64,000 nt of DNA. Source: Sneathiellales bacterium (GTDB taxonomy: Bacteria > Pseudomonadota > Alphaproteobacteria > JANQFL01). Position numbers and translations under genes: made by a program. Shown here piece by piece: positions 23,213 through 50,832 of the stretch. A model generated the notes under the pieces. That model ran no database searches. It saw only the letters and a program-made list of their open reading frames with translations, and was not told where the DNA came from. How positions within the stretch are numbered: the first letter of the stretch is position 1; each line of letters opens with the position of its first letter. The stretch covers positions 1-64,000 of the forward strand of contig JANQFL010000108.1 in NCBI GenBank assembly GCA_028277845.1, read 5' to 3'.

Positions 23213-24400
23213 GTGAACACCAAACAACTCCGCATACTGATGGTGACCGAAGCCTGGGGGTTCATCCATGGCGGCGGTATCAACGTGATGATTCAGACGC
23301 TCGCCAATCAACTGAAAAAGACTGCGTTGGTTGATGTGTTGGTGCCGTCCTGGCAGGTAAAAAAGGCGACGACCGAAAGCACCGGCGGTTTCAATGTGGT
23401 TAGATTGGGATTGGCTTCGCCGGTCAACGTGCAAAACAGATTTCGCTCAATCTTGAGTTTCTTTGCGCTGTTTCCGTCGGTGCTGTTGCAATTGACGCTG
23501 TACATCACGCGCCGCGACATCGATGTCGTTCATCTCCACTATCTTGGCCACTATCACTTCTATTTTCGTCTTCTCCGCATTGTCGGGGGACCTCCGTACA
23601 TCATCACGTTGCACGGCAGCGACGTGGCGCGGTTCTCCGAACAGCCGTGGCTGTCACGCAAACTCTGCGAGTTCGCTCTGAGGGGCGCGTCCGCTGTTGT
23701 CGCCGTATCCGACAATCTGCGCACCTTGGCACAAGCCCAGTGGCCGGACCTCGATGCGATCACGGTCGTGCACAACGGCGTTTCCTTCGAACATGCAACA
23801 CTGCCAACGGATGCCGACTATTCAGAGGTCGCGAACATCCTGGCACTGCAAGGGGCTTACATATGCGCCCTGGGCGCCGTCGAACCTGTCAAGAATCAGA
23901 TCGTATTGATCAAGGCATGGCCGCAGGTGCTGGAAGCCTACCCCGATTTTCATTTGATCATCGCCGGAACCGGTACGCTTGAACCGTCGTTTGATGCATT
24001 GATCCAAAGCTTGAATTGCCAACATCGCATTCATCTTGTCGGCAAACTCGTTCATCTCCCGACTCTGAAGGTGCTGCAGGAGGGCAGGGGGCTGGCATTG
24101 ACATCCAAGCGGGAGGGTCTGCCCTACGCCCTGCTCGAAGCCGGCATGTTGGGCAAAGCGGCCATCGCCTCCCGAGTGGGTGGGATGCCGGAGGTGATCG
24201 ATGACGGTGTGACCGGCATCCTGGTCCCGGTCGACGATGTGGACGCGACGGCGAAGGCTGTGATGACCCTTGTCGGCGATGAGGCCAATGCGAACCGCAT
24301 GGGGCTGGCCGCGCGAGAACGGGTGAAAAAGCAGTTTTCCGCCGAATCCATGGGTAACGGATACCTGGAACTCTATCGGGCCGCAATCGGGGCTCAGTAA
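23213..24400 (+). CDS. Family 4 glycosyltransferase
   Basis: GT-B retaining glycosyltransferase of 395 residues starting at a GTG. The N-terminal domain has MVTEAWGFIHGGGIN and ITLHGSDVARFSEQ; the C-terminal domain has GAVEPVKNQ, the E-x7-E-like KREGLPYALLEAGMLGKA and the nucleotide-sugar region SRVGGMPEVIDDGVTG. It acts at the cytoplasmic membrane surface in repeat-unit assembly. Confidence 0.93.
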   Translation: MNTKQLRILMVTEAWGFIHGGGINVMIQTLANQLKKTALVDVLVPSWQVKKATTESTGGFNVVRLGLASPVNVQNRFRSILSFFALFPSVLLQLTLYITRRDIDVVHLHYLGHYHFYFRLLRIVGGPPYIITLHGSDVARFSEQPWLSRKLCEFALRGASAVVAVSDNLRTLAQAQWPDLDAITVVHNGVSFEHATLPTDADYSEVANILALQGAYICALGAVEPVKNQIVLIKAWPQVLEAYPDFHLIIAGTGTLEPSFDALIQSLNCQHRIHLVGKLVHLPTLKVLQEGRGLALTSKREGLPYALLEAGMLGKAAIASRVGGMPEVIDDGVTGILVPVDDVDATAKAVMTLVGDEANANRMGLAARERVKKQFSAESMGNGYLELYRAAIGAQ

Positions 24401-24586
24401 ATCAATTTGAATATATGATTATGGCGGATGCTCAGCCGAAAACACATGCGGGTGCCGCGATTATTGTTTGGTAATATTTGTTCATTAGTCAGGTCCCGAT
24501 GATTGCCTAAAGGCTATCTTAATCACCAGGGCCTATGCTTGGGCGCCGCAGTTCTGACAAGAATTCTTTAAAATCAAACGACGGCA

Positions 24587-25597
24587 GTGGTGAACAAGGG
24601 GCGGGTCGTTTCCGTGAGCAGAACACACGAACTCCAATGGCACGAGACGCCGGACAAGGACGCGATCGGTCTTCTGTCTCAAGCCCACCCCGAAAATCCG
24701 TTTTACACGCACGAATATGTCGCGTTCCGACTGGCGCAGGGGTGGACGCCGCATATGCTCTGGCTTGATGCCGGTTACGATGCGACCGGCGCGACCGCGG
24801 TCGGATGCACGGCGTTCGGTAAATCGGGCCGCGCCAGTCGAACGCTGGAAATACCCTCGATGCCGGATGTTGATGCCGACCATGTGTTTTGGCAGGAACT
24901 GCGGACCTTGTGCCGCAAGGAGCGCATCACCGATCTGACGGTGGGTAGTTTCGCGTCGCCCGGCGGGACGATTCCCGATTTGGGACCGGTTGTGTCCCGC
25001 AAGGACCGATGGGAATACGTCCTCGATCTGCAGCAACCCGATTTGTTCCGGAAGATGCGCAAAGGGCATGCCTACAGCATCAAACGCGGCCAGAAAGCCG
25101 GTCTGGTATTGAAGCGCCGAACGGATATGGAGGCGTGCCGGATCCATGCGGACCTGATCAACGCGTCGATGGAACGGCGTCAGCAGCGCGGCGAAAACGT
25201 CAGCACGGGCGCGCAAGCAGACAATTTCGCTTCGATCCTGGACGCCGGCGCGGGAGAGATCTTTCAGGCGGTGCAGGACGATAACGTTCTGTCGTCGAAC
25301 CTGATTCTGCTCTCCGACAAGGGCGGCTACAACCACACCCAGGGGACACGGCCCGACGGTATGAACGTGGGTGCCGCCCAGTTCCTGATTCATGCCATCG
25401 CCCAGTCGTTGGCGGCGGACGGCGCGACCCTGTTCAATATCGGAGGAACCGACGACCCGGAATCCGGGCTGACCAAATTCAAAAGCGGGTTCGGCAAGTC
25501 GACCCGTGTGATCAGCCTGCAATCCGCCCAATTCACCATGCACCGCAGTTTTCTCGGTACCGTGAAATCGGTACTGCGTTCCGTGCATTCGCGCTGA
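24587..25597 (+). CDS. FemAB/GNAT-like acyltransferase
   Basis: 336-residue protein with a single FemAB-like double-GNAT fold (Acetyltransf_6 type): an early WTPHMLWLDAG strand, then KMRKGHAYSIKRGQKAGL, the usual basic helix, and a C-terminal LFNIGGTDDPESGLTKFKSGFG like the substrate loop of FemAB/BcsL proteins. It could aminoacylate or acylate a glycan or lipid-linked sugar. Translation probably starts at the tandem GTGs at 24587. It lies 24 bases upstream of a second FemAB-like gene. Confidence 0.75.
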   Translation: MVNKGRVVSVSRTHELQWHETPDKDAIGLLSQAHPENPFYTHEYVAFRLAQGWTPHMLWLDAGYDATGATAVGCTAFGKSGRASRTLEIPSMPDVDADHVFWQELRTLCRKERITDLTVGSFASPGGTIPDLGPVVSRKDRWEYVLDLQQPDLFRKMRKGHAYSIKRGQKAGLVLKRRTDMEACRIHADLINASMERRQQRGENVSTGAQADNFASILDAGAGEIFQAVQDDNVLSSNLILLSDKGGYNHTQGTRPDGMNVGAAQFLIHAIAQSLAADGATLFNIGGTDDPESGLTKFKSGFGKSTRVISLQSAQFTMHRSFLGTVKSVLRSVHSR

Positions 25598-25621
25598 CAG
25601 CCGGACACGAACGAGGCCGCA

Positions 25622-26758
25622 GTGATCAAGTCTTTGATACGGCAAGTGCTGAGACGGATGCCGGACAAATGGCAGTTCGCCTTCGATGTCGCTGTCATCG
25701 TTCTGCAGGAAACGCGCGCCAACTGGACCATGCCGGTATACCGCGTTCGCGGCCCGCTGGCAGGCGAAGACATCGAGGGGACGCTGGTCTATCTCGGGGA
25801 TCAGCCCCAGTACAAATCCTGGGTGTCGAACATATTTTCCGAACCGTCCAAACCGGAACGTGTGGGCACCGTCAGTTTTCCGAGTGCGGTTCAGCGTCGT
25901 GGCGACTCCCTTGCCGCCGACATTATCCTGTGTCCGACGAACCCGGCCGCATCCAAGTTTCTTCGACGTGCCGGCTGGCGGATCGTCCCCAAGTTCGTTG
26001 ACAGCGTGATCGACCTGCGCCGGCCGGTCAAAGATCTCATTCGCAGCAAGGGCGCCAAGGACGATGTTCGGGTGGTGCGAAAGCTGCAGTACGAACCGCG
26101 GATACTGACCGGGGAGGAACACCTCAGGGAATATTACGAGGATATGCTGCTGCCCATGGTCGAAACGCGGCACAAGGACAACGCACATATTTCTCAATGG
26201 GACGAAGTGCGGAGCATCTTCGCCGACGGGCATCTGCTGGGTGTGTACCGCGACGGTGCATGGGTCGCGGCGATCCTCATCGGCAATGCCGGGGACAAGG
26301 GCGTTCGCATCGCCAGCGTCGGATGGCGCGCGGGCGATGCACAACTGCTCAAGGACCGTGTCGCGGCGGCGTTGTTCTATCACGCCATACTGTGGGCGCA
26401 GGAACAGGGCTTCGAAACGATGAACCTCGGCGGCAGTCTGCCGTTCGTCTCCGACGGCCCCCTCAACTTCAAACTCAAATGGGGCGCCGATTTGCGCGCG
26501 CCGGAACTTGCCCGCGAAGGCGATGGCGTCGACGGCGTGAGAAGCTATCTGGCCGTTGCCACGAACACCGCGACGGCGGCGGGCCGGGCGATGCTGAAAC
26601 ACAATCCGCTTCTGGAGAAACATGACGACGCCATCCGCGCGATCGCATGGCAGTCCGACGTGCCGCGCTTGTTCAAACACCAGGTCGACCGCGGATTCCC
26701 TTGGATCGATTTATCCGACCATGGACACGAAGGCGAAACCCGTGGCGAAACCGGCTGA
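25622..26758 (+). CDS. Second FemAB/GNAT-like acyltransferase
   Basis: 378 residues from a GTG start. The C-terminal half shows a GNAT-like core (GVYRDGAWVAAILIGNAG) and the loop MNLGGSLPFVSDGPLNFK followed by KWGA, which parallels the NIGGTDDPESGLTKFK loop of the preceding gene. The N-terminal 200 residues are less clear. The downstream ATP-grasp gene starts inside its last 38 bases. An acyl or aminoacyl transfer to the glycan is inferred only from family and context. Confidence 0.7.
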   Translation: MIKSLIRQVLRRMPDKWQFAFDVAVIVLQETRANWTMPVYRVRGPLAGEDIEGTLVYLGDQPQYKSWVSNIFSEPSKPERVGTVSFPSAVQRRGDSLAADIILCPTNPAASKFLRRAGWRIVPKFVDSVIDLRRPVKDLIRSKGAKDDVRVVRKLQYEPRILTGEEHLREYYEDMLLPMVETRHKDNAHISQWDEVRSIFADGHLLGVYRDGAWVAAILIGNAGDKGVRIASVGWRAGDAQLLKDRVAAALFYHAILWAQEQGFETMNLGGSLPFVSDGPLNFKLKWGADLRAPELAREGDGVDGVRSYLAVATNTATAAGRAMLKHNPLLEKHDDAIRAIAWQSDVPRLFKHQVDRGFPWIDLSDHGHEGETRGETG

Positions 26759-28601
26759 ATCCGCGGACGGTGGTGCCGCGAGGCCCGATGCACCGAACGC
26801 GGTGCCGCCCGCGGTCCTGATTCTTGGCGCCGGTCCCCGCCTGACGTTGACCATCGCCCGGTCCCTGAAACGGCGGGGGGTCAAGGTGATCGTATCCCCT
26901 GTCAGTCAGGCGGAAGACGTCATCCCGTCCCGTGCAATCGACCGCTTTGTCACGCTGCCCGACAACGCATCCGGGCCGGACGAATTTCTCCAAGCGCTTC
27001 TGGCGCTGATCCGTTCGGAGAACATCGAACTGATCATGCCGACCGGCGACGGCGCCATGGCGATTCTCGGCCAGCACTACAATGCGCTGAAAAACGAAAC
27101 GCGCCTGGGCTGTCCCACGCCCGATGTCATGGAAGCCGTCCTCAACAAGGAAATCACACTGGATGCGGCTAGGCGGTGCGGCATTCCGGCGCCCCTCAGT
27201 TTGCCGGTGGCCGACGCAAGTGAAGCCAAATCGGCATCGCATAAACTCACATTTCCGGTGATCGCCAAGCCGACCGTGCGCAAGGGCGCCAGCCCGTTCA
27301 AGGTGCGTTACTTCAAGACATCCGAAGCGTATATGGCCAGCGCCGAGGCCGAACCGGAATTGTGGCAAGACGTTCTGGTGCAGGAGTATTGTCCGGGCTA
27401 CGGCGTCGGCATCGGCACCTTGTTGCATGACGGCGAACCCATGGCCTTGTTCCAGCACCGGCGGATCAAGGAACTACCCTATTCCGGCGGAGTCAGTGTC
27501 ATGGCCGTCGCTGAGGAACCCGATCCGGGCATTCGTCAGGCGGCGCTCGATCTGTTGCGGGAGATCGGCTGGTACGGCATCGCCATGGTCGAGTTCCGCT
27601 ACGATCCGGCAAGCGGCAAGTTCTGGCTGATGGAAATCAATGGGCGGTACTGGGGCTCGCTCTTCGTCGCCGCCAAAGCCGGGCTGGATTTTCCCTATTA
27701 CGAATGGCAGTTGGCACACGGCCAAAAGCCTGAACCGCCGGAGCGGTATGCCGTCGGCACGAAGGCACGGTGGCTCAGCGGCGATATCATGCGCCTTGTC
27801 GGTATCTTGTCCGGGCCGCAACTCGGCTTCAACAGGCCGTCGCCGTTGCGGGAAATACTTCTCTTCTTCCTGCACTTTTCGCCCCACATCCGGCACGCGG
27901 TCTGGTCCGTCGCCGATCCCAAGCCGGCCATTTGGGAGTGCTGGGAGACGCTCAAGCCGTTGATCACAAGGGCGGTCAAAAAGATCGCGAAGCTCGTCTT
28001 GCCGTCGTTCGTGCTCGAGCAATTGTCGATCTACCGGAGTCTCGGCAGCCGCAGGAAACACTTTCTTAGGTCGCAACTGAAACGGCTGTTCCGGCCAAGT
28101 TCCGCACTGTGCAGGATCGGGCAGCGGCCTGTCCGGTCGGTACTGTTCGTCTGTCTCGGCAATATTATGCGCAGTCCCATGTCGGCCGAAATACTCAAGC
28201 GGGAGTTGCCGCCGGACATGGCGCGGGACATGTCCATCACGTCTGCCGGCTTGTGGCGCGGCCTGGATCCGCAAAACCCGCGTCGGTCGCCCGAGGAGGT
28301 CCAGATGGTGGCCAAGGAGTTCGCCGTATCGCTCGAGGCTCATCGTTCCCAGCCGGTGACCGATGCACTGGTGGCGAAACAGGATCTGATCTTCGTCATG
28401 GACTACGAGAACGAGGCAACGATGCTGGACCGGTTTCCCGAATGCCGCGACCGTCTGTATCTGCTGGGGGCCTGCATATCGAAAGTGCCCGTCAGACAGT
28501 ATGAAATCGAGGACCCGTGGGGTGGCGGCAAGGACACGATCCGCGTCGCCTTTCGGACCATTCAGGACCGCGTCTCCGGGCTGGCGAAGCTATTGACTTG
28601 A
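26721..28601 (+). CDS. ATP-grasp / low-molecular-weight tyrosine phosphatase fusion
   Basis: 626-residue fusion. Residues 1-400 form an ATP-grasp ligase of the carbamoyl-phosphate-synthase type with LILGAGPRLTLTIARSL (pre-ATP-grasp), PVIAKPTVRKGASPF and the metal-binding MEINGRYWGS (E305, N307). A basic helical linker follows. Residues about 470-626 form a LMW protein tyrosine phosphatase: FVCLGNIMRSPMSA has C478-x5-R484 and EDPWGG carries the general acid D598, so it looks active; the second cysteine of the usual P-loop is methionine. The start at 26721 overlaps the previous gene. Substrates are unknown; the phosphatase could serve the tyrosine kinase at 42361. Confidence 0.88.
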   Translation: MDTKAKPVAKPAESADGGAARPDAPNAVPPAVLILGAGPRLTLTIARSLKRRGVKVIVSPVSQAEDVIPSRAIDRFVTLPDNASGPDEFLQALLALIRSENIELIMPTGDGAMAILGQHYNALKNETRLGCPTPDVMEAVLNKEITLDAARRCGIPAPLSLPVADASEAKSASHKLTFPVIAKPTVRKGASPFKVRYFKTSEAYMASAEAEPELWQDVLVQEYCPGYGVGIGTLLHDGEPMALFQHRRIKELPYSGGVSVMAVAEEPDPGIRQAALDLLREIGWYGIAMVEFRYDPASGKFWLMEINGRYWGSLFVAAKAGLDFPYYEWQLAHGQKPEPPERYAVGTKARWLSGDIMRLVGILSGPQLGFNRPSPLREILLFFLHFSPHIRHAVWSVADPKPAIWECWETLKPLITRAVKKIAKLVLPSFVLEQLSIYRSLGSRRKHFLRSQLKRLFRPSSALCRIGQRPVRSVLFVCLGNIMRSPMSAEILKRELPPDMARDMSITSAGLWRGLDPQNPRRSPEEVQMVAKEFAVSLEAHRSQPVTDALVAKQDLIFVMDYENEATMLDRFPECRDRLYLLGACISKVPVRQYEIEDPWGGGKDTIRVAFRTIQDRVSGLAKLLT

Positions 28602-28713
28602 ACCGGGTTTTCGATATTCCGTGCCGCCATATGTTCATGCAATGTTTATATGTTGCCGCCATATCTAGCGCGGTATGTACTCGGACTTTTCTTCGATCGA
28701 TCAGCGACTACAA

Positions 28714-29883
28714 ATGAAAGATATTCTGCGCCGTAAATACCGTGAGTTTTCTCTGCCCGGCCTGGCCAAGCAGGAACTTCGCCGCGACCGGCAGGGATTG
28801 CCGGACACCGACACGCCGCTTGATGAAGCCGTGCGGGCGGCGATGGACTGGCTGGTGCGGGCGCAGGACAAGTCCGCTTCCCAGGATGGCGGCGTCGCCC
28901 GGGATTTCAGCCTGATCAAGGGTTGGGCCACATCATACCCCGAAACGACGGGCTACATCGTCCCGACCATTCTGGAGGGCGCGCGGCGTAAGGTGCGGCC
29001 CGACCTGCGGGAACGGGGCCGGAGAATGCTGGACTGGATGGTGTCCATTCAGTTCCCTGAAGGCGGCTTTCAAGGCGGCAAGATCGATTCGACGCCCGTC
29101 GTGCCGGTGACGTTCAACACCGGCCAGATCCTCATCGGTCTGGCAGCGGGCGTGGCCGAATTCGGCGAGTCCTACGTCGAACCCACCGAACGCGCCGCGG
29201 CCTGGCTGGCCGACACCATGGATGACGACGGCTGCTGGCGGAACTTTCCCACGCCGTTCGCGGCGCCTGGCGAGAAAGCCTACGAAACCCATGTTTCGTG
29301 GGGATTGTTCGAGGCCGAGCGTGTCCGGCCAGGCAAGGGATATGGCGACGCCGGCTTGAAAAACGTGTCCTGGGCGCTGACCAAGCAACGCCCGAACGGC
29401 TGGTTCGACAGCAATTGCCTGACCATGCCCAGCGCGCCGCTCACCCACACCATCGGATATGTCCTGCGCGGTGTTCTGGAAGGCTACCGGCTGAGCGAAG
29501 ACAGGAACTTGCTGACCGCGGCACAAAAGACGGCCGACGGTGTGCTGTCGGCCATTGGCCCCGACGGCTATCTGCCCGGGCGTCTCGATGCCGATTGGCA
29601 ACCGGCCGTGTCGTGGGTCTGCCTGACCGGATCGGTCCAGATCGCCCACTGCTGGTTGATGCTGTACGGATACACGGGCAATGAGGCCTACCGGGATGCG
29701 GCATTTGCCGCCAACGCCTATGTCCGGCGGACCATCAGGATGACGGGTAACGAAGATCAGTTGGGCGCCGTCAAAGGCGCGTTTCCCGTCGATGGCGGCT
29801 ATGGCTCCTACGAGTATCTCAACTGGGCCGCCAAGTTTTTCATCGATTCCCATTGGCTGGAGCGCGATATCCGGCTTGGCTGA
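28714..29883 (+). CDS. Alpha/alpha-toroid protein (terpenoid cyclase/glycosidase-like fold), unknown function
   Basis: 389 residues from the ATG at 28714. Repeated pairs of helices separated by glycine/aromatic turns (FPEGGFQGGKID, DDDGCWRNFPTPF, QRPNGWFDSNC, GPDGYLPGRLD) indicate an alpha/alpha toroid as in terpenoid cyclases, prenyltransferases and some polysaccharide lyases. No signal peptide is seen. The DxDD motif of squalene-hopene cyclases is not apparent. It ends a plus-strand run of glycan-modification genes and overlaps the convergent hydrolase gene by 44 bases. Confidence 0.65.
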   Translation: MKDILRRKYREFSLPGLAKQELRRDRQGLPDTDTPLDEAVRAAMDWLVRAQDKSASQDGGVARDFSLIKGWATSYPETTGYIVPTILEGARRKVRPDLRERGRRMLDWMVSIQFPEGGFQGGKIDSTPVVPVTFNTGQILIGLAAGVAEFGESYVEPTERAAAWLADTMDDDGCWRNFPTPFAAPGEKAYETHVSWGLFEAERVRPGKGYGDAGLKNVSWALTKQRPNGWFDSNCLTMPSAPLTHTIGYVLRGVLEGYRLSEDRNLLTAAQKTADGVLSAIGPDGYLPGRLDADWQPAVSWVCLTGSVQIAHCWLMLYGYTGNEAYRDAAFAANAYVRRTIRMTGNEDQLGAVKGAFPVDGGYGSYEYLNWAAKFFIDSHWLERDIRLG

Positions 29884-30802
29884 CGGTTGGGTGCGTGCCT
29901 GAGATCCAGTTGATGGTGGTGTCCTCCACCCAGGCGCGCCACTCGGCGCGCGAAAACGTGTGATCGGCGGGGTCGAGGTCACAGCGGGTCACCCGCGTGT
30001 CGTCCAGAAGGCTCCGCCACATCGTCGAACGTGCGGCCGCATCGGTGAACTCCCTGGCGGTGAAATCCTGCCCCGACAGGATCAGCAGAACTCGGCCACG
30101 GAATTTTTCCAGCCCGCGCCCCATGCGCGCGGCCAGCGCGTCGTTTCCTGATGTGTCCGGGGCGGCCGCATTTTTTTCATGACCGGGATCGGGGTCGATG
30201 TCCGGCTGTTGTCGCTTGGCGCCGCCGGCCACGGTGGCGATCATGGCGAACAGGGACTTCAGTGAGCCGGCGATGTCGACCCCACCGCCGGCCAATTTGC
30301 GCCAGAAGGCCGGATTGCGAAGCTGCGCCAGATAATAGTGTTTGAGGTATGTGCGCGCCGCGCCTTCCTCGCTGTGCACCCAGGGGTTCAGCAAAGCCAC
30401 GGCCGTGATGCGCGGGTCCCGATGGGCATAAAACAGGATGGCCGAGGCCGCGTCGCACAATCCCCATAACACGACGTTTTTGATCGATGGACACCGTGCA
30501 CACAGGATATCGACGGCGGCCCCGATATCGTCGTCGATGGCCTCGAAACCGGCGAAGACGCCCTCGCTGTCACCCATGCCGCGGTAGTCGAAACGAAGCA
30601 CCGGCCAGCCTTCGGCCGCCAGGCGCCGGGCCAGCAACACGAACTGGCGGTGGCTGCCGACGCGGTATTGCGGGCCGCCAACGACAATGACAATGCCTGT
30701 CTCGGCATCCGCGTTCCCGGTGTGCAGAATGCCGACGAGGTCCGCCTGTTGGCAGGGAATGGTCAGGGGTGATTCCCCGAATGTCTCGGCCACGATGGTC
30801 AT
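29840..30802 (-). CDS. Exosortase A system-associated hydrolase 1
   Basis: Alpha/beta-hydrolase of 320 residues of the exosortase-A-associated hydrolase 1 family (TIGR03100). FDYRGMGDSEG follows the usual oxyanion-region strand, and VLWGLCDAASAILF sits where the nucleophile elbow is expected, with cysteine in place of serine. A late DPADHTFSRAEW carries the likely catalytic histidine. It starts at 30802, overlapping the stop of hydrolase 2 by 4 bases (ATGA). Its 3' end overlaps the convergent toroid gene. The substrate is unknown. Confidence 0.88.
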   Translation of the reverse strand: MTIVAETFGESPLTIPCQQADLVGILHTGNADAETGIVIVVGGPQYRVGSHRQFVLLARRLAAEGWPVLRFDYRGMGDSEGVFAGFEAIDDDIGAAVDILCARCPSIKNVVLWGLCDAASAILFYAHRDPRITAVALLNPWVHSEEGAARTYLKHYYLAQLRNPAFWRKLAGGGVDIAGSLKSLFAMIATVAGGAKRQQPDIDPDPGHEKNAAAPDTSGNDALAARMGRGLEKFRGRVLLILSGQDFTAREFTDAAARSTMWRSLLDDTRVTRCDLDPADHTFSRAEWRAWVEDTTINWISGTHPTVSQAGYRAPANGNR

Positions 30803-31620
30803 GCCGGAGCCTTCCCGTCGGTCAGGGTCTGCCGTGTTGCGTCGATCAGATTGGGCGCCGTGGCGGTTTCCTGCAAAGACCAGAACGGCTCCCCGACGAT
30901 AGGCCGGAGTTGAACGTCCATGCCGGCCGCGCGCCATACATCGATCTGCCGGCGTGCCGCGGGAGTCGCCTCACGGCCTTCATCCGATACCAGTTCGAAC
31001 CAGGAGACGGGGGTTGGCCGGGGGTCGAAATCGCCGAGCTTCAACGCGTCAATGTCGGCCGCCAGGTCCGCGCTCAACATATAGCCCGCGACTTCCACGG
31101 CCGTGCCGGCATTCAGTCGGTCGCGCAAGTCCTTGGTGGTTTCGCCTTTTTCGCCGGTCAGGCCGGCAGCCATGCGAATGCGCAGGAACTGCGTGATGAA
31201 CTGACTGCCGGACGTCACCGCTTGCCACAGAACAAGGTGGTTGATCGGATGCGTGGTCCGCGCGAGCAGATCAAGGGCGAGCACGGCGCCCAGCCGCAGG
31301 CCGACGAGCGAAATACCCGCACGCTCCTTGCCGGAGAGCCAAGATAGGGCGGCTTCGGCATCGCCAAGCCAGGTGGTCCAGCGCCCGTCGGTGAAATCGC
31401 CGGCGCTGTCACCGGTTCCATGGGGGTCGAGGATCAGCGTCCCGATACCGGATTCGGCCAACGATCGCGCCAGCATTGCGGCCATGAAGCGGCTGCGGTT
31501 CATTTCTTCCGCGAACGGCGGCAGGTATAAGACATCCCCGTTATCGGGGGTATCGGCCTTGGGGGGATGGTAAACGCAGAATACGGGTCTGGCAGCGCCG
31601 TCTAGAAAGAATGGCTGCAT
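30799..31620 (-). CDS. Exosortase A system-associated hydrolase 2
   Basis: 273-residue alpha/beta-hydrolase-like protein of the exosortase-A-associated hydrolase 2 family (TIGR03101). Typical are YLPPFAEEMNRSRFM near the start, LDPHGTGDSAGDF, and LVGLRLGAVLALDLL at the elbow, where the usual nucleophile serine is replaced by arginine (GLRLG), as I would expect of a non-classical member. It lies 23 bases after the acyl carrier protein gene and is coupled to hydrolase 1. A thioesterase-like role with the ACP is an inference. Confidence 0.88.
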   Translation of the reverse strand: MQPFFLDGAARPVFCVYHPPKADTPDNGDVLYLPPFAEEMNRSRFMAAMLARSLAESGIGTLILDPHGTGDSAGDFTDGRWTTWLGDAEAALSWLSGKERAGISLVGLRLGAVLALDLLARTTHPINHLVLWQAVTSGSQFITQFLRIRMAAGLTGEKGETTKDLRDRLNAGTAVEVAGYMLSADLAADIDALKLGDFDPRPTPVSWFELVSDEGREATPAARRQIDVWRAAGMDVQLRPIVGEPFWSLQETATAPNLIDATRQTLTDGKAPA

Positions 31621-31643
31621 GGTGCCCGACCGGCCCCCGTCCG

Positions 31644-31895
31644 TCAGGCGGCCTGTTTAAGGTCGATGAAGGCGCACAGACTGCCTACGGTTTCGAACGT
31701 TTCGGCGCTGATTTCATCGTCTTCGACCACGATGCCGAAGGAGTCTTCGATACCCGTAATCACGGCGACGACGGCCATGGAATCAAGCTCGGGCAGGCTG
31801 CCCAGCAGTGCCGTCTCCGGTTCCAACGTTTCCGCCCGGTCGCCCAGCTGCAGGGTGTCGCGGAGAATGGATTTGACGTCGTCGAGGGTCGCCAT
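31644..31895 (-). CDS. Acyl carrier protein
   Basis: 83-residue four-helix carrier protein with the phosphopantetheine attachment serine S39 in LPELDSMAVVAVI. The ATG at 31895 (MATLDDVKSIL) is chosen because the carrier fold begins there. It heads the minus-strand run ACP - hydrolase 2 - hydrolase 1 and is divergent from the acyl-CoA ligase, which may load it. ACPs of this kind are regular members of exosortase A loci. Confidence 0.92.
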   Translation of the reverse strand: MATLDDVKSILRDTLQLGDRAETLEPETALLGSLPELDSMAVVAVITGIEDSFGIVVEDDEISAETFETVGSLCAFIDLKQAA

Positions 31896-32185
31896 GGTCG
31901 GTATTCCTAAGCCAATCGGTACGGGAGAAAAACTATGCTCGGGTCCAATGTCGCCCGCTGCGGTTTCTAAATAATGAAAACATGTGGTCAAATAAAGCCT
32001 TAACCGGGCTATTCGGATGGGAGGCCGGGGCCGAAATCGTTAACGGCGCGGGTCCGGAATCCGTGACATGGGCGAAACATCGTGGCATTACCATCCACTT
32101 TTGATTAAGTGTTCTCCGACTAGATTACCTTGAAATTCAACGATCTAGGAATTTCCCGCTCGGTTGGGACCCGTTTCACAGATAA

Positions 32186-33775
32186 ATGCTTGTCGATCAT
32201 CTCATTTCCCAACACGCCGCCGATTCCGCGCCGGCCAATGCGCTCGTCCACAAAGGCGACGTGTTGTCGTATCGGGCCCTGGAGGAGCAGGTCCAAGGCG
32301 TCGCCAATGGCCTGCTCGAAGCGGGCCTGGGCCGGGCCGGTCGCGTCGCCGTTTATCTGGAGAAGCGCCTCGAAACGGTCGCCGCCATGTTCGGCGCGGT
32401 CCGGGCCGGAGGTGCTTTTGTTCCGGTCAACCCGTTGCTGAGGCCGCGCCAGGTCGGACACATTCTGCGCGATTGCGGCGTCCGCGTGCTGGTGACCAGC
32501 CCCGACCGTCTGAATTCGCTGGGCGATGAAATCGGCGCTTGCCCGGAACTGACATCGGTCGTGCTCGTCGGGTCAGGCACCGTCGATATCGGCGCAAAAC
32601 AGGTTGTCGCCTGGCAGGATCTGATCGCGGCGCCTTTCCGTCAGGCACACCGTGTCATCGACGGCGATTTGGCCGCCATCATGTACACGTCGGGCAGCAC
32701 GGGCTTGCCCAAAGGCGTCATGCTGTCCCATCGCAACATCGTCGCCGGGGCTTTGAGCGTGGCCGAATATCTCGAAAACGGGCCGCACGACCGCATTTTG
32801 TCCGTTCTGCCGCTCAGCTTCGACGCCGGCATGAGCCAGTTGACCACCGGTTTCGCGGTTGGTGCGGAAGTCATCTTGATGAACTACCTGCTGCCCAAGG
32901 ATGTCGTCGTCCAGGCCGGCAAACACCGGATCACCGGCCTGACCGGCGTGCCGCCCCTGTGGAACCAACTGGCGCAACTGGAATGGCCGGCCGAGGCCGT
33001 CGACAGTCTGCGGTACTTCGCCAATACCGGCGGCGCCATGCCCCGCGCGACGCTGGACAGGCTTCGAACCGCATTGCCCAAGAGCAAGCCGTTCCTGATG
33101 TACGGACTGACCGAAGCGTTCCGGTCGACCTACCTGCCGCCGGAACAGGTCGACCGGCGTCCCGATTCCATTGGCAAGGCGATTCCCAACGCGGAAATAC
33201 TGGTGATCGGCGAGGACGGCAATCCCGTCGGCCCCGGACAAGAAGGGGAACTTGTGCACCGCGGCGCATTGGTCGGTTTGGGTTACTGGAACGATCCCGA
33301 AAAGACGGCAAAACGCTTTAAACCGGTACCCGGTGGACCCGATGGATTGGTTGTACCCGAAATCGCCGTCTGGTCCGGCGACACCGTGCGCATCGACGAT
33401 GAGGGCTATCTCTATTTCGTCGGCCGGCGCGACGACATGATCAAAACCTCGGGTTACCGGGTCAGTCCAAACGAGGTGGAGGAAACCGTCTACGCCAGCG
33501 GGGCCGTCGGCGAAGCGGTCGCGCTGGGTGCGGCACACCCGACCCTGGGCCAGGGGATTGTCGTCGTGGCAACGGCGCCCAACGGTGCGGCCTTCGACGT
33601 GGACGCCGTCATCGCCTTCTGCCGCCGAGAGTTGCCGCCGTTCATGGTGCCGCACCAGGTGATCGAACGCGACTCCCTGCCGCGCAATCCGAACGGCAAG
33701 ATCGACCGCACGGTTCTGGCGGCCGAATTCGCCGATACATTCCAGCCGGAAAACGGTGCGGAGGACGGCGCATGA
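32186..33775 (+). CDS. Acyl-CoA ligase (AMP-forming), exosortase A-associated
   Basis: 529-residue adenylate-forming enzyme (ANL superfamily, TIGR03098-like). Motifs are the P-loop MYTSGSTGLPKGVMLSHRN, YGLTEAFRS, the hinge RRDDMIKTSGYRVSPNEVEE and the C-terminal catalytic lysine in NPNGKIDR. It would adenylate a carboxylate and transfer it to CoA or to the nearby ACP. The stop overlaps the start of the decarboxylase gene (ATGA, 33772-33775), so the two are translated together. The divergent spacer to the ACP gene (31896-32185) contains no other gene. Confidence 0.93.
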   Translation: MLVDHLISQHAADSAPANALVHKGDVLSYRALEEQVQGVANGLLEAGLGRAGRVAVYLEKRLETVAAMFGAVRAGGAFVPVNPLLRPRQVGHILRDCGVRVLVTSPDRLNSLGDEIGACPELTSVVLVGSGTVDIGAKQVVAWQDLIAAPFRQAHRVIDGDLAAIMYTSGSTGLPKGVMLSHRNIVAGALSVAEYLENGPHDRILSVLPLSFDAGMSQLTTGFAVGAEVILMNYLLPKDVVVQAGKHRITGLTGVPPLWNQLAQLEWPAEAVDSLRYFANTGGAMPRATLDRLRTALPKSKPFLMYGLTEAFRSTYLPPEQVDRRPDSIGKAIPNAEILVIGEDGNPVGPGQEGELVHRGALVGLGYWNDPEKTAKRFKPVPGGPDGLVVPEIAVWSGDTVRIDDEGYLYFVGRRDDMIKTSGYRVSPNEVEETVYASGAVGEAVALGAAHPTLGQGIVVVATAPNGAAFDVDAVIAFCRRELPPFMVPHQVIERDSLPRNPNGKIDRTVLAAEFADTFQPENGAEDGA

Positions 33776-35007
33776 GCCAGAGCAAACCGCGACATGCGCC
33801 ATTGCCGGATTTCGGCGTCGATGGAGACCGACTGCTGGTGGGCGGCATTCCCGTCGACCGCCTGGCGGACCGGGTCGGCATGACGCCGTTCTATGCCTAT
33901 GACCGCAGGTTGCTCGGCGACCGCGTCGGCGAATTGCGTGCAGCCTTGCCCCAGGAGGTCAAGTTGCACTACGCGGTCAAAGCCAATCCCATGCCGGCCG
34001 TGGTGCAGCACATGGCCGGCCTGGTCGACGGTTTCGATGTGGCGTCGGGCGGCGAACTCAAGACCGTGCTGGACACGACCATGCCGACCGGTGAAATCAG
34101 TTTTGCCGGCCCGGGCAAATCCCGTGACGAAATCGGCCGCGCCGTTGCCGCCGGCATCGTGATCAACGCCGAGTCCGAAGCCGAAATTCGGGCTGTTGCC
34201 GACATCGGCGCGGCGCAGGGCGTGACCGCGAAGGTCGCCGTGCGCGTCAATCCGGATTTCGAACTCAAAACGGCCGGCATGCAGATGAGCGGCGGTCCCA
34301 AACCGTTCGGCATTGACGCCGAACGCATGCCGCAGGTGCTTTCGTCGATGGCCGGTTTGCCCATCGAGTTCGTCGGGTTTCATATTTTCAGCGGCTCGCA
34401 GAACTTGCGGGCGGAAGCCATTCTCGAGGCCCAGGAGAAGACCATCGAACTGGCCGGCGATCTCGCCAGTCACGCCCCCGCGCCTGTGAAAACGCTCAAT
34501 ATCGGCGGCGGGTTGGGTATTCCGTATTTCCCCGGTGAAACGCGGCTCGATCTTACCGTCGTGGGCCGCAATCTGGCGAATTTGATGCCGCGGGCGCAGT
34601 CTTTGATGCCCGGAGTGGAAATCGTCATCGAGCTGGGCCGTTTCCTGGTCGGTGAAGCCGGTGTCTATGTTTGCCGGGTCGTCGACCGAAAGGAATCCCG
34701 TGGCCAGGTGTTCCTCGTTACCGATGGCGGTTTGCACCACCATTTGGCGGCGTCGGGCAATTTCGGCCAGGTGATCCGCAAGAACTATCCGGTGGCGATC
34801 GGAACCCGCATGCGGGCCCCGGCCGAAGAATCGGTGAACGTTGTCGGGCCCTTGTGTACGCCGCTGGATGTTTTGTCCCAGAAAGTGGATCTGCCCCGTG
34901 CCGATGTGGGTGATTTGGTCGTCGTGTTCGCCTCCGGCGCGTATGGACTGACGGCCAGTCCGACGGCGTTTCTCGGCCATCCCGCTCCGGGCGAAGTCCT
35001 GGTCTAG
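33772..35007 (+). CDS. PLP-dependent decarboxylase, exosortase A-associated
   Basis: Fold-type III PLP decarboxylase of 411 residues related to diaminopimelate/ornithine decarboxylases (TIGR03099-like). The PLP lysine is in KLHYAVKANPMPAV, phosphate binding in NIGGGLGIPY, ELGRFLVGEAG follows, and the second-subunit active-site residues are in GPLCTPLDVL. It would decarboxylate an amino acid or amino-acyl compound to an amine. The substrate is unknown. It is translationally coupled to the ligase and 18 bases from the asparagine-synthase-like gene. Confidence 0.93.
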   Translation: MSQSKPRHAPLPDFGVDGDRLLVGGIPVDRLADRVGMTPFYAYDRRLLGDRVGELRAALPQEVKLHYAVKANPMPAVVQHMAGLVDGFDVASGGELKTVLDTTMPTGEISFAGPGKSRDEIGRAVAAGIVINAESEAEIRAVADIGAAQGVTAKVAVRVNPDFELKTAGMQMSGGPKPFGIDAERMPQVLSSMAGLPIEFVGFHIFSGSQNLRAEAILEAQEKTIELAGDLASHAPAPVKTLNIGGGLGIPYFPGETRLDLTVVGRNLANLMPRAQSLMPGVEIVIELGRFLVGEAGVYVCRVVDRKESRGQVFLVTDGGLHHHLAASGNFGQVIRKNYPVAIGTRMRAPAEESVNVVGPLCTPLDVLSQKVDLPRADVGDLVVVFASGAYGLTASPTAFLGHPAPGEVLV

Positions 35008-42360: not shown

Positions 42361-43362
42361 ATGAGCATGATTGAAAAGGCTGTGGAACGGCTGAATAAGC
42401 CCGGCAAGAACAGCCTCGTCGAAAAGGCTGCGGAACGGCTCGAAGATGAGATCTTGCGGGGCGATACCTCCGAGACGGGCGTCATTTCGCCCGACGGTCA
42501 TGCCGATGCTGTCGTCGAAAACCCGGAAGAGGCCGCCAGCGAGGCCGCGGTTGCCGACACCGTTCCCGAGGTCGAGCCGGAAAAGGCCGAGCAGCCGCCG
42601 CCGGAGGAACGTACTCAGCAGTCCAAGCGCCGCATTGACATCGATTTCGATCACCTGTCCAAAGCGGGATTTGTGACGCCGCAACGCATGCGCACGCGCA
42701 TCGCCGAGGAATATCGCGTCATCAAACGGCCCCTGCTGCAAAAGGCCTTCGTTCGCGGAGGCAATGCCTTGCACAACGGCCATCTGATTTTGGTCACGAG
42801 TTCCCGTCCTGACGAAGGAAAGACGTTCACCGCCATCAATCTGGCGATGAGCATCGCCTCCGAGCGTGATTTGACCGTTTTGCTTGTCGATGCGGACTTC
42901 GCCAAATCGGGCATCGGCAAGACCTTGAATATCGAAGCCGAAAAAGGGCTGTCCAATGTCCTCACCGACAGCAGCCTGGACTTGTCCGACGTCATGATTC
43001 GGACCAACTTGCCGAATTTGTCCATCCTGCCCTCGGGTCCGGCCGATCCGTTTACGACGGAGCTGCTCGCCAGCGACCGCATGGGCCGTTTGATCGAGGA
43101 TATCGCCGCACGGTATTCGGACCGTGTGATCATCTTCGATTCGCCGCCTGTGCTCGCCAGTTCCGAACCGGCGGTGCTGGCGACGCACGTCGGGCAGGTT
43201 TTATTTGTCGTCGAGGCCGATGAAACGGGTGAAAGTGCAATTCGAGAAGCGCTTGACCTTATTAGTTCTTGCAAAAACATCGGTCTTGTATTGAATAAGA
43301 CCCAATCTAGGATCGGTTCCGAGCTTTTTGGCTCATATTATTACGGTGAGTCTCGGACCTAG
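42361..43362 (+). CDS. XrtA-associated tyrosine autokinase (BY-kinase)
   Basis: Cytoplasmic BY-kinase of 333 residues. An acidic N-terminal linker precedes the kinase with Walker A SSRPDEGKTFTAIN, Walker A' LLVDADFAKSG and Walker B RVIIFDSPPVLA. The C-terminal tail FGSYYYGESRT carries the tyrosine cluster for autophosphorylation. It belongs with the separate Wzz protein encoded just upstream (TIGR03018-like). No stand-alone tyrosine phosphatase is in the window; the only candidate domain is in the ATP-grasp fusion at 26721. Confidence 0.94.
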   Translation: MSMIEKAVERLNKPGKNSLVEKAAERLEDEILRGDTSETGVISPDGHADAVVENPEEAASEAAVADTVPEVEPEKAEQPPPEERTQQSKRRIDIDFDHLSKAGFVTPQRMRTRIAEEYRVIKRPLLQKAFVRGGNALHNGHLILVTSSRPDEGKTFTAINLAMSIASERDLTVLLVDADFAKSGIGKTLNIEAEKGLSNVLTDSSLDLSDVMIRTNLPNLSILPSGPADPFTTELLASDRMGRLIEDIAARYSDRVIIFDSPPVLASSEPAVLATHVGQVLFVVEADETGESAIREALDLISSCKNIGLVLNKTQSRIGSELFGSYYYGESRT

Positions 43363-49136: not shown

Positions 49137-49218
49137 ATGTAAGGTGTTGGAAACCACTTCGTTGCCATAGTGGTTGTGTCCCCGTGCAGCGCGCGAAGGG
49201 GTTTTCGGGAGTTATGTC

Positions 49219-50832
49219 TTGTCGGACACGGTGACCAGATTGAAGCGTTCGGAGACCGGCGGTGCGCCGGTGCCCGCGGGCTGTCACGGTACCGGGTCGC
49301 AGGATAGTACCGGGCTGCCCGATCCTTTGGACACCAGGATGGTGGCGTGGTCGACTGTCTGTGTTGCCATTGCAGCCGTGCTGTTCGTGTTCGCGGACAC
49401 GGTCGTTGGGGCGGTCGACAAGTGGTACAACACGCGCAGCTACAATCACATTTTCTTCATACTGCCGATTTGCGGTTATCTGCTGTGGGAGCGCCGGCAG
49501 TTGCTGGCACGGTTGGCGCCCAAACCGTCTCTTGCCGGGATCGCCGTGGTGGCGGCGGGAGCGCTGGGCTGGCTGCTCGGGGAAACGGCGGGCGTCAAGT
49601 TCGTGCAACAGTTCGCCCTGGTCATGATCCTGCAAGGAATTTTTCTCGCCGTGTTGGGCTGGGGGGTGGTCCGCCGCATGGCGTTCCCTTTGTTGTACTT
49701 GGTATTCCTGGTCCCGTTCGGGGATTTTCTGGTGCCCAAGCTGCAGGACATTACGGCCCAGTTCGTCGTGCGCGGCCTGCAGATGATCGGAATTCCGGTG
49801 TTCCTCGACGGTATTTTCATTTCGATACCGTCGGGCAACTTCGAAGTGGCCGAGGCTTGCTCGGGTTTACGCTTTCTCACGGCGTCCATCGCGCTGGGCG
49901 TGCTGTTCGCCAACATCATGTACCGTAGTTGGTGGCGGCGCGGTGTCTTTTTTGTACTGACCCTGACGGTGCCGATCGTCGCGAACGGTCTTCGTGCCTT
50001 GGGGATCGTTTTGCTGGCCCATTATTCCGACAATCAAATCGCGGTCGGTGTCGATCACCTCGTTTATGGCTGGATCTTCTTTTCCTTCGTCACAGCCATT
50101 CTGTTCGGCCTCGGCATGACGTTCCGTGACGGTGGCGTCGATCATGCCAACAACCATGTGAGCGAGCGCTTCGCGCCCGGCAGATCCTCGGCGATCGTAG
50201 GTTTTGGGGTCATTGCCGTTGCCTTGGCCGGTTTGTCTCCGGCCTACGGTGCCTATGTCCATCAGCGTCTCGCCGACAGCCGGGTCACGACCGAGCTTGC
50301 GTTACCCGCCGGTTTCTCGAATTGGACGCCGGTGCACAAGGACTCGTGGCAATGGCAACCGGGTTACCTTGGTGCCGACCGAAACTACCATTGGCAGTTT
50401 CGTGAACCGGGTACCGGCCGCACGGTGGACTTGCATGTGGTGTTCTACCGCTATCAGCGCGATGGTTCGGAAGTGGTCAATTCCACCAACCGACTTGGCG
50501 ACGGCGGGTGGCAATGGGTCAGCAACGGCGTGGTTCAGGCGCGCGTCGAAGGTCACATCATGACCGTTCCCGTGTCGCGTCTGTCGAAGCTTCGGTCGAA
50601 ACGCGTGGCGGCCTATTGGAATTGGGTCGATGGACGTACGGTGACCAACCCGATCGTTGCAAAAGCCTTGCAGGTCAAGGCGGCTTTGCTGGCCGGGCAG
50701 GCTTCGGCGGCGGCCGTGGTCGTTTCCGCGCCCTATTTGGATACGCCAAGAGAGGCGAACGATGCCATCCAAGCCTTCCTATTGTCCGCCAAGCCGCTCG
50801 GGGCGCAGCTCGAATCCATTACGCGGGAATAG
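49219..50832 (+). CDS. xrtA: Exosortase A fused to EpsI domain
   Basis: Membrane transpeptidase-like sorting enzyme that recognises PEP-CTERM proteins. About eight helices carry the conserved catalytic residues: C214 in EVAEACSGLRFL, R259 in ANGLRALGIVLLAHY and H280 in GVDHLVYGWIFF. After the exosortase domain (to about 310) a helix leads into a periplasmic EpsI/DUF3485 domain (about 330-537), the fused form seen in many XrtA loci. No ATG precedes the first helix; the TTG at 49219 with GGGAG at 7 bases is the best start, with TTG 49174 and GTG 49231 as alternatives. Confidence 0.94.
   Translation: MSDTVTRLKRSETGGAPVPAGCHGTGSQDSTGLPDPLDTRMVAWSTVCVAIAAVLFVFADTVVGAVDKWYNTRSYNHIFFILPICGYLLWERRQLLARLAPKPSLAGIAVVAAGALGWLLGETAGVKFVQQFALVMILQGIFLAVLGWGVVRRMAFPLLYLVFLVPFGDFLVPKLQDITAQFVVRGLQMIGIPVFLDGIFISIPSGNFEVAEACSGLRFLTASIALGVLFANIMYRSWWRRGVFFVLTLTVPIVANGLRALGIVLLAHYSDNQIAVGVDHLVYGWIFFSFVTAILFGLGMTFRDGGVDHANNHVSERFAPGRSSAIVGFGVIAVALAGLSPAYGAYVHQRLADSRVTTELALPAGFSNWTPVHKDSWQWQPGYLGADRNYHWQFREPGTGRTVDLHVVFYRYQRDGSEVVNSTNRLGDGGWQWVSNGVVQARVEGHIMTVPVSRLSKLRSKRVAAYWNWVDGRTVTNPIVAKALQVKAALLAGQASAAAVVVSAPYLDTPREANDAIQAFLLSAKPLGAQLESITRE

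Follow-up and report, generated by a model that had tools for sequence, protein, structure and literature searches.

An ATP-grasp ligase joined in one protein to an LMW protein-tyrosine phosphatase (LMW-PTP) is a real and conserved architecture of XrtA exopolysaccharide loci. The two domains are encoded by one open reading frame with conserved active sites, their fusion recurs in other genomes, and both domains are tightly linked to each other, as is the phosphatase to a BY-kinase. The case studied here lies in a stretch of 64,000 nucleotides from a Sneathiellales bacterium (contig JANQFL010000108.1; hereafter "the window"), in which the forward strand at 26721-28601 encodes a protein of 626 amino acids without internal stop. 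An alternative in-frame ATG lies upstream at 26622, where a mechanically called reading frame may start. The initial annotation, made from the DNA sequence only, had proposed a single protein with two domains, and this is borne out by the uninterrupted reading frame and by matches of both domains above the Pfam cut-offs. The catalytic residues that it had named (E305, N307, C478, R484, and D598) are found at the positions claimed and are intact in our alignment. We dropped an assembly or frameshift artefact as the origin of the fusion because the same fusion is present in six other genomes and in plasmid records of Vibrio alfacsensis. Among its relatives is a protein from a Rokubacteria MAG that aligned to residues 27-600 of the query with 32% identity.

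An AlphaFold model of the fusion protein (built with 27 related rows; mean pLDDT 87.3, pTM 0.70) predicts two confident domains that are connected by a linker at residues 416-472 (27966-28136, + strand), in which confidence is low from about residue 421 and pLDDT ranges from 52 to 67 across most of residues 421-470. The N-terminal half (residues about 27-415; 26799-27965, + strand) is an ATP-grasp domain of the carboxylate-amine ligase-like kind according to Pfam, the model, and structural matches. Its matches to ATPgrasp_Ter (PF15632; 31.7 bits vs a cut-off of 29.1) and CPSase_L_D2 (PF02786; 31.5 bits vs 19.8) are accompanied by the metal/ATP motif E305-I-N307-G-R309 (27633-27647, + strand), of which E305, N307, and R309 are invariant together with K183 in all 20 aligned ATP-grasp rows, while E291 is conserved in 19 of them. 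Sequence match, fold match, and this set of conserved Lys, Glu, and Glu-x-Asn-x-Arg place the domain in the ATP-grasp superfamily. The nearest folds are the carbamoyl-phosphate-synthase-like 2pn1 (Z 27.9) and the L-amino acid ligase 3vot (Z 27.3), with PylC also among the structural matches. These PRK12767-type ATP-grasp proteins and L-amino acid ligases resemble the window's domain in fold (Z 25-28) and have the same residue set, but the window protein is only 16-18% identical to the solved structures, and its ligase domain is fused to a phosphatase and placed in an XrtA locus. Our best reading of the N-terminal domain is a carboxylate-amine ligase with polymer decoration as its probable task.

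The structural search of the model was swamped by the ATP-grasp domain, and the phosphatase fold is assigned from sequence matches and the model. Residues 473-624 (28137-28592, + strand) match LMWPc (PF01451) with an E-value of 6.6e-22 and 78.7 bits (cut-off 23.2), and phmmer against the PDB recovered 7dhd, 4egs, and Wzb (2fek) as well as the Wzb structures 2wmy and 2wja. The P-loop reads C478-L-G-N-I-M483-R484-S485 (28152-28175, + strand) and the general-acid loop D598-P599-W (28512-28520, + strand); C478, R484, S485, D598, and P599 are invariant in all 14 rows with a phosphatase domain, which thus have the CX5R(S/T) P-loop and the Asp-Pro loop typical of the family. Judged by these residues, both domains of the fusion protein look catalytically intact. 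The window protein has Ile at P-loop position 5, a site that distinguishes phosphotyrosine-specific from phosphoarginine-specific enzymes of the YwlE type and at which Ile favours phosphotyrosine (PMC8001253).

The full C(X)4CR(S/T) signature (PMC8001253) is absent from the window protein, where Met483 takes the place of the usual second P-loop cysteine that has been discussed as a backdoor redox residue in LMW-PTPs (PMC5656095). Methionine is also found at this position in the fusions of genomes G301, G602, and G534, and isoleucine in G873, V. alfacsensis, G657, G709, and G737, while the cysteine is kept in the fusions of G289 and G705 and in separate phosphatases of the gammaproteobacterial type, so that the majority of fused phosphatases are without it. 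Wzb/Etp-type LMW phosphatases share the Pfam domain, the CX5R P-loop with Ile at position 5, the Asp-Pro loop, and a nearby BY-kinase with the window phosphatase, and Wzb/Etp proteins of plasmid records were among its tblastn matches. However, they are stand-alone proteins of about 150 aa, whereas the window phosphatase is the C-terminal domain of a 626-aa protein with Met483 at the backdoor site. Because its score against the NCBIfam Wzb equivalog (NF007520) is 45.8, far under the cut-off of 243, we do not file it as Wzb but only as working like Wzb.

The initial annotation had placed the gene in a capsule locus. This setting has to be replaced on NCBIfam evidence by an XrtA/PEP-CTERM exopolysaccharide system, since XrtA, PrsT, and the export, chain-length, and kinase genes of the XrtA type all score above their cut-offs; a classical capsule locus was rejected in its favour. 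These genes, all on the + strand where given, comprise the export protein (TIGR03027; 39715-40359, +), the chain length determinant (TIGR03007; 40738-42333, +), the XrtA-associated tyrosine autokinase that is the presumed phosphatase substrate (TIGR03018; 42361-43362, +; 255.5 bits vs a cut-off of 230.65), and exosortase A (XrtA) with an EpsI-type C-terminal domain (49174-50832, +). Further genes of the locus encode an outer-membrane protein (43328), an ATPase (44862), a deacetylase (45751), a FemAB protein (46668), a glycosyltransferase (47907), PrsT (57738), and an EpsB-like transferase (61098). A further PrsT-like TPR protein is encoded just past the window (L089:1987-4809; contig C23 about 65987-68809) and shares 30% identity with PrsT from 57738.

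The fusion gene itself sits in a run with a GT4 glycosyltransferase (23213-24400, +) and, two genes upstream of it, a GNAT/FemAB-like protein (Acetyltransf_6; 24587-25597, +; Pfam E 2.9e-8). Directly upstream is the gene of a 378-aa protein (25622-26758, +), the end of which overlaps the start of the fusion gene by 38 nt and which has no Pfam or NCBIfam match. By eye, the end of this protein looks GNAT/FemAB-like; the assignment was dropped because a leave-one-out GNAT profile failed to recover it. A 715-aa frame on the opposite strand (24533-26680, -) runs antisense to two predicted genes without any family match and probably results from GC-rich codon use. The next gene after the fusion encodes a 402-aa protein (28675-29883) for which the only matches are weak ones to squalene-hopene cyclases, in their C-terminal part, and an acyl-CoA ligase/decarboxylase/hydrolase set occupies 29840-35007.

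Within this locus, the fusion provides the sole phosphatase domain near the BY-kinase, just as had been proposed: the 134-kb contig carries a single LMWPc match, which is separated by 14.6 kb from the gene of the XrtA tyrosine autokinase and is thus encoded with a BY-kinase in one locus. This kinase is the only protein of the genome above the BY-kinase cut-off, and it has the tyrosine-rich tail that the initial annotation had pointed out (its C-terminus reads GSYYYGESRT). We found no CpsB-type phosphatase in the genome and therefore rejected a CpsB/PHP-type enzyme as the alternative. The genome as a whole has four LMWPc matches. Two of those elsewhere, with the motifs CSQNAIRS on contig C40 (where a short conserved ORF adjoins the gene) and CTGNSARS on contig C41, were rejected as Wzb candidates since these motifs look like other subtypes; the protein on C41 we take to be arsenate-reductase-like. 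The strongest of the other matches is a canonical, complete LMW-PTP on contig C52 that adjoins a fructosamine kinase and no exopolysaccharide locus. The idea that no stand-alone Wzb serves the kinase therefore stands for the locus, where there is none, but is less secure for the whole genome, where this unlinked enzyme could act in trans.

Searches across other genomes revealed that the fusion is rare yet recurrent, and not common and already characterised, which would have refuted the initial proposal; the literature searched contained no description of an ATP-grasp plus LMWPc architecture. A search of 289 genomes from the same class as the window, run at E 1e-40, matched none but the genome that the window comes from. 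Nine of 398 genomes of the phylum matched, with the fusion in the window's genome, G301, G602, and G534; an order-level search added one more fusion genome (G873), and nine of 95 genomes from the phylum of the Rokubacteria MAG matched, two of them with the fusion (G289 and G705). Beyond the window's genome, the architecture is thus present in four other Pseudomonadota genomes, in two from the Rokubacteria MAG's phylum, and on a Vibrio alfacsensis plasmid, i.e., in several lineages, which rules out that it is unique to the window's genome.

Across 24 other genomes with the same ATP-grasp, the LMWPc domain is fused to it in six, encoded separately within about 5 kb in nine, and joined instead to the adjacent GT4 in two (G709 and G737). 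None was seen in the stretches fetched from the other seven, which in some cases are truncated at a contig end. The GT4-LMWPc fusions have a related phosphatase domain and adjoin a free-standing ATP-grasp gene of the same family within exopolysaccharide loci, but differ from the window protein in that the phosphatase is joined to a glycosyltransferase and not to the ligase. We observed them as single ORFs with a GT4 and a C-terminal LMW tyrosine phosphatase at L065:6191-8200 (-) and L084:10602-12779 (+). The fusion rows are scattered over three positions of the ATP-grasp tree, which needs three changes, at least two of them forced by well-supported branches, and we conclude from this that the fusion, or its retention, recurs; the pattern may reflect repeated fusion, or fusion with later splitting. 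The tree of the LMWPc domain is weakly supported and is not used to count the origins of that domain. Since this rare pairing turns up in unrelated bacteria, it seems that the phosphatase became part of a biosynthetic enzyme on more than one occasion.

The neighbourhood of the ATP-grasp gene is informative as well. A polysaccharide deacetylase gene directly adjoins it in 12 of the 24 genomes, including the fusions of G289 and G705, and the other fusions and V. alfacsensis have a GNAT gene one or two genes upstream, in most of them with a flippase in between, a pattern that includes gammaproteobacterial cases (the deacetylase and GNAT profiles used here are local and were each built from few sequences). 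This context favours a modification of the polymer or its precursor at amino groups.

The phosphatase also tends to lie near a BY-kinase. Among 13 genomes with usable contigs, 11 have LMWPc, fused or separate, at 9-43 kb from a BY-kinase, with G289 and G705 as the two exceptions; the naive chance of this, 1.7e-14, ignores shared ancestry and uses a 45-kb limit set after the data had been seen, so that it is to be read only as strong linkage. The V. alfacsensis plasmid pVa1 offers a parallel to the window. Its fusion protein (WP_128813648.1; P-loop CYGNIIRS) shares about 26% identity with that of the window and is built from the same two domains. The surrounding XrtA/PEP-CTERM locus contains PrsT, GNAT, and flippase genes, with the XrtA tyrosine autokinase encoded about 27 kb away from the fusion, and no second LMWPc was found in the about 90 kb examined. 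The record names the fusion protein only as "ATP-grasp domain-containing protein" and leaves the phosphatase domain unnamed. A complete XrtA/PEP-CTERM exopolysaccharide locus is plasmid-borne on pVa1 (L093 and L094), which also has genes for acyl-CoA dehydrogenase, thiolase, and lipid transfer.

Wzb dephosphorylates the tail of Wzc, and both phosphorylation and dephosphorylation are required for polymer production (PMC8285477; PMC2777267). By analogy, we propose that the fusion gene encodes a bifunctional cytoplasmic enzyme of the XrtA/PEP-CTERM exopolysaccharide locus, the C-terminal LMW-PTP domain of which would remove phosphate from the tyrosine tail of the XrtA-type BY-kinase at 42361. This would reset the complex of kinase and chain-length determinant and allow polymer assembly to go on, in the role that Wzb has for Wzc. 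The N-terminal ATP-grasp domain would form an amide or similar bond, in which a carboxylate such as an amino acid most likely becomes attached to an amino group on the polymer precursor or on a linked building block. The linker, finally, would tether the phosphatase to the biosynthetic enzyme so that the kinase is reset where, and in amounts that, the precursor is made. We infer the kinase tail as phosphatase substrate, the substrates of the ligase, and any communication between the domains; taken by itself, a reset of the XrtA-type kinase by the C-terminal domain is probable, and to the whole reading, with Wzb-like reset, amide ligation, and tether, we assign a probability of roughly 55%.

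The initial annotation had suggested that the fusion could couple dephosphorylation directly to a ligation step, an idea that is weakened by the GT4-LMWPc fusions of other genomes. Because another lineage joins the phosphatase to GT4, we favour tethering to the biosynthetic machinery in general over such specific coupling. A bolder extension would have the phosphatase built into enzymes that make or decorate exopolysaccharide building blocks (ATP-grasp in several lineages, GT4 in another), with the substrate state of the ligase gating the phosphatase, precursor synthesis feeding back on BY-kinase cycling so that the supply of repeat units is linked directly to polymer assembly, and loss of the backdoor cysteine in most fused forms making the switch insensitive to reversible oxidation; we regard this as speculative and unlikely in its full form.

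The phosphatase domain could also act on something other than the BY-kinase, i.e., another phosphoprotein, a sugar-phosphate, or a small-molecule phosphate of the same pathway, e.g., one tied to the product of the ATP-grasp domain. LMW-PTP relatives do vary in substrate, with YwlE and PtpB acting on phosphoarginine (PMC8001253), the phosphatase adjoins or is fused to biosynthetic GT4 and ATP-grasp enzymes, and the fusions of G289 and G705 are found on contigs of 54 kb and 408 kb that carry no BY-kinase. Yet the Ile at P-loop position 5 is as in phosphotyrosine enzymes, 11 of the 13 usable genomes keep the phosphatase less than 45 kb from a BY-kinase, and the window's kinase would be left without any other phosphatase in its locus, so that we consider such a substrate unlikely, though well worth keeping in mind. 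A different doubt concerns the ligase, which might have been merely recruited into the locus and produce a soluble small molecule that has nothing to do with the polymer, such as a modified amino acid or a dipeptide. Its nearest folds include PylC and a dipeptide-forming L-amino acid ligase, and the family is widely spread, with members annotated "carboxylate--amine ligase" even on haloarchaeal plasmids; its repeated occurrence inside exopolysaccharide loci, by a polysaccharide deacetylase or near GNAT and flippase genes, makes this quite improbable.

Both domains might, on the other hand, function as proposed but independently, with the fusion fixing no more than their equal expression and bringing neither tether benefit nor coupling, while the LMW-PTP on C52 may reset the kinase in trans. 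That this enzyme is complete and canonical, that many relatives keep separate genes, that the fusion partner differs between lineages (ATP-grasp or GT4), and that the low-confidence linker comes with no predicted fixed domain interface in the model would all fit. Against it, at least two of the changes on the ATP-grasp tree that place the fusion rows in three positions are forced by well-supported branches, and the C52 phosphatase with its adjoining fructosamine kinase gene lies outside exopolysaccharide loci; independence of the domains therefore appears unlikely to us. The reading that we prefer remains a tethered, Wzb-like phosphatase that resets the XrtA-type kinase.

How phosphorylation cycling of Wzc and other BY-kinases is coupled to polymer synthesis is still treated as a hypothesis by structural studies (PMC8285477). 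The joining of a phosphatase to precursor enzymes, seen in separate lineages, is a concrete and testable candidate for this link between kinase cycling and synthesis. It also draws attention to a conserved, unnamed gene pair of ATP-grasp plus LMW-PTP in XrtA exopolysaccharide loci, which a label such as "ATP-grasp domain-containing protein" can hide.
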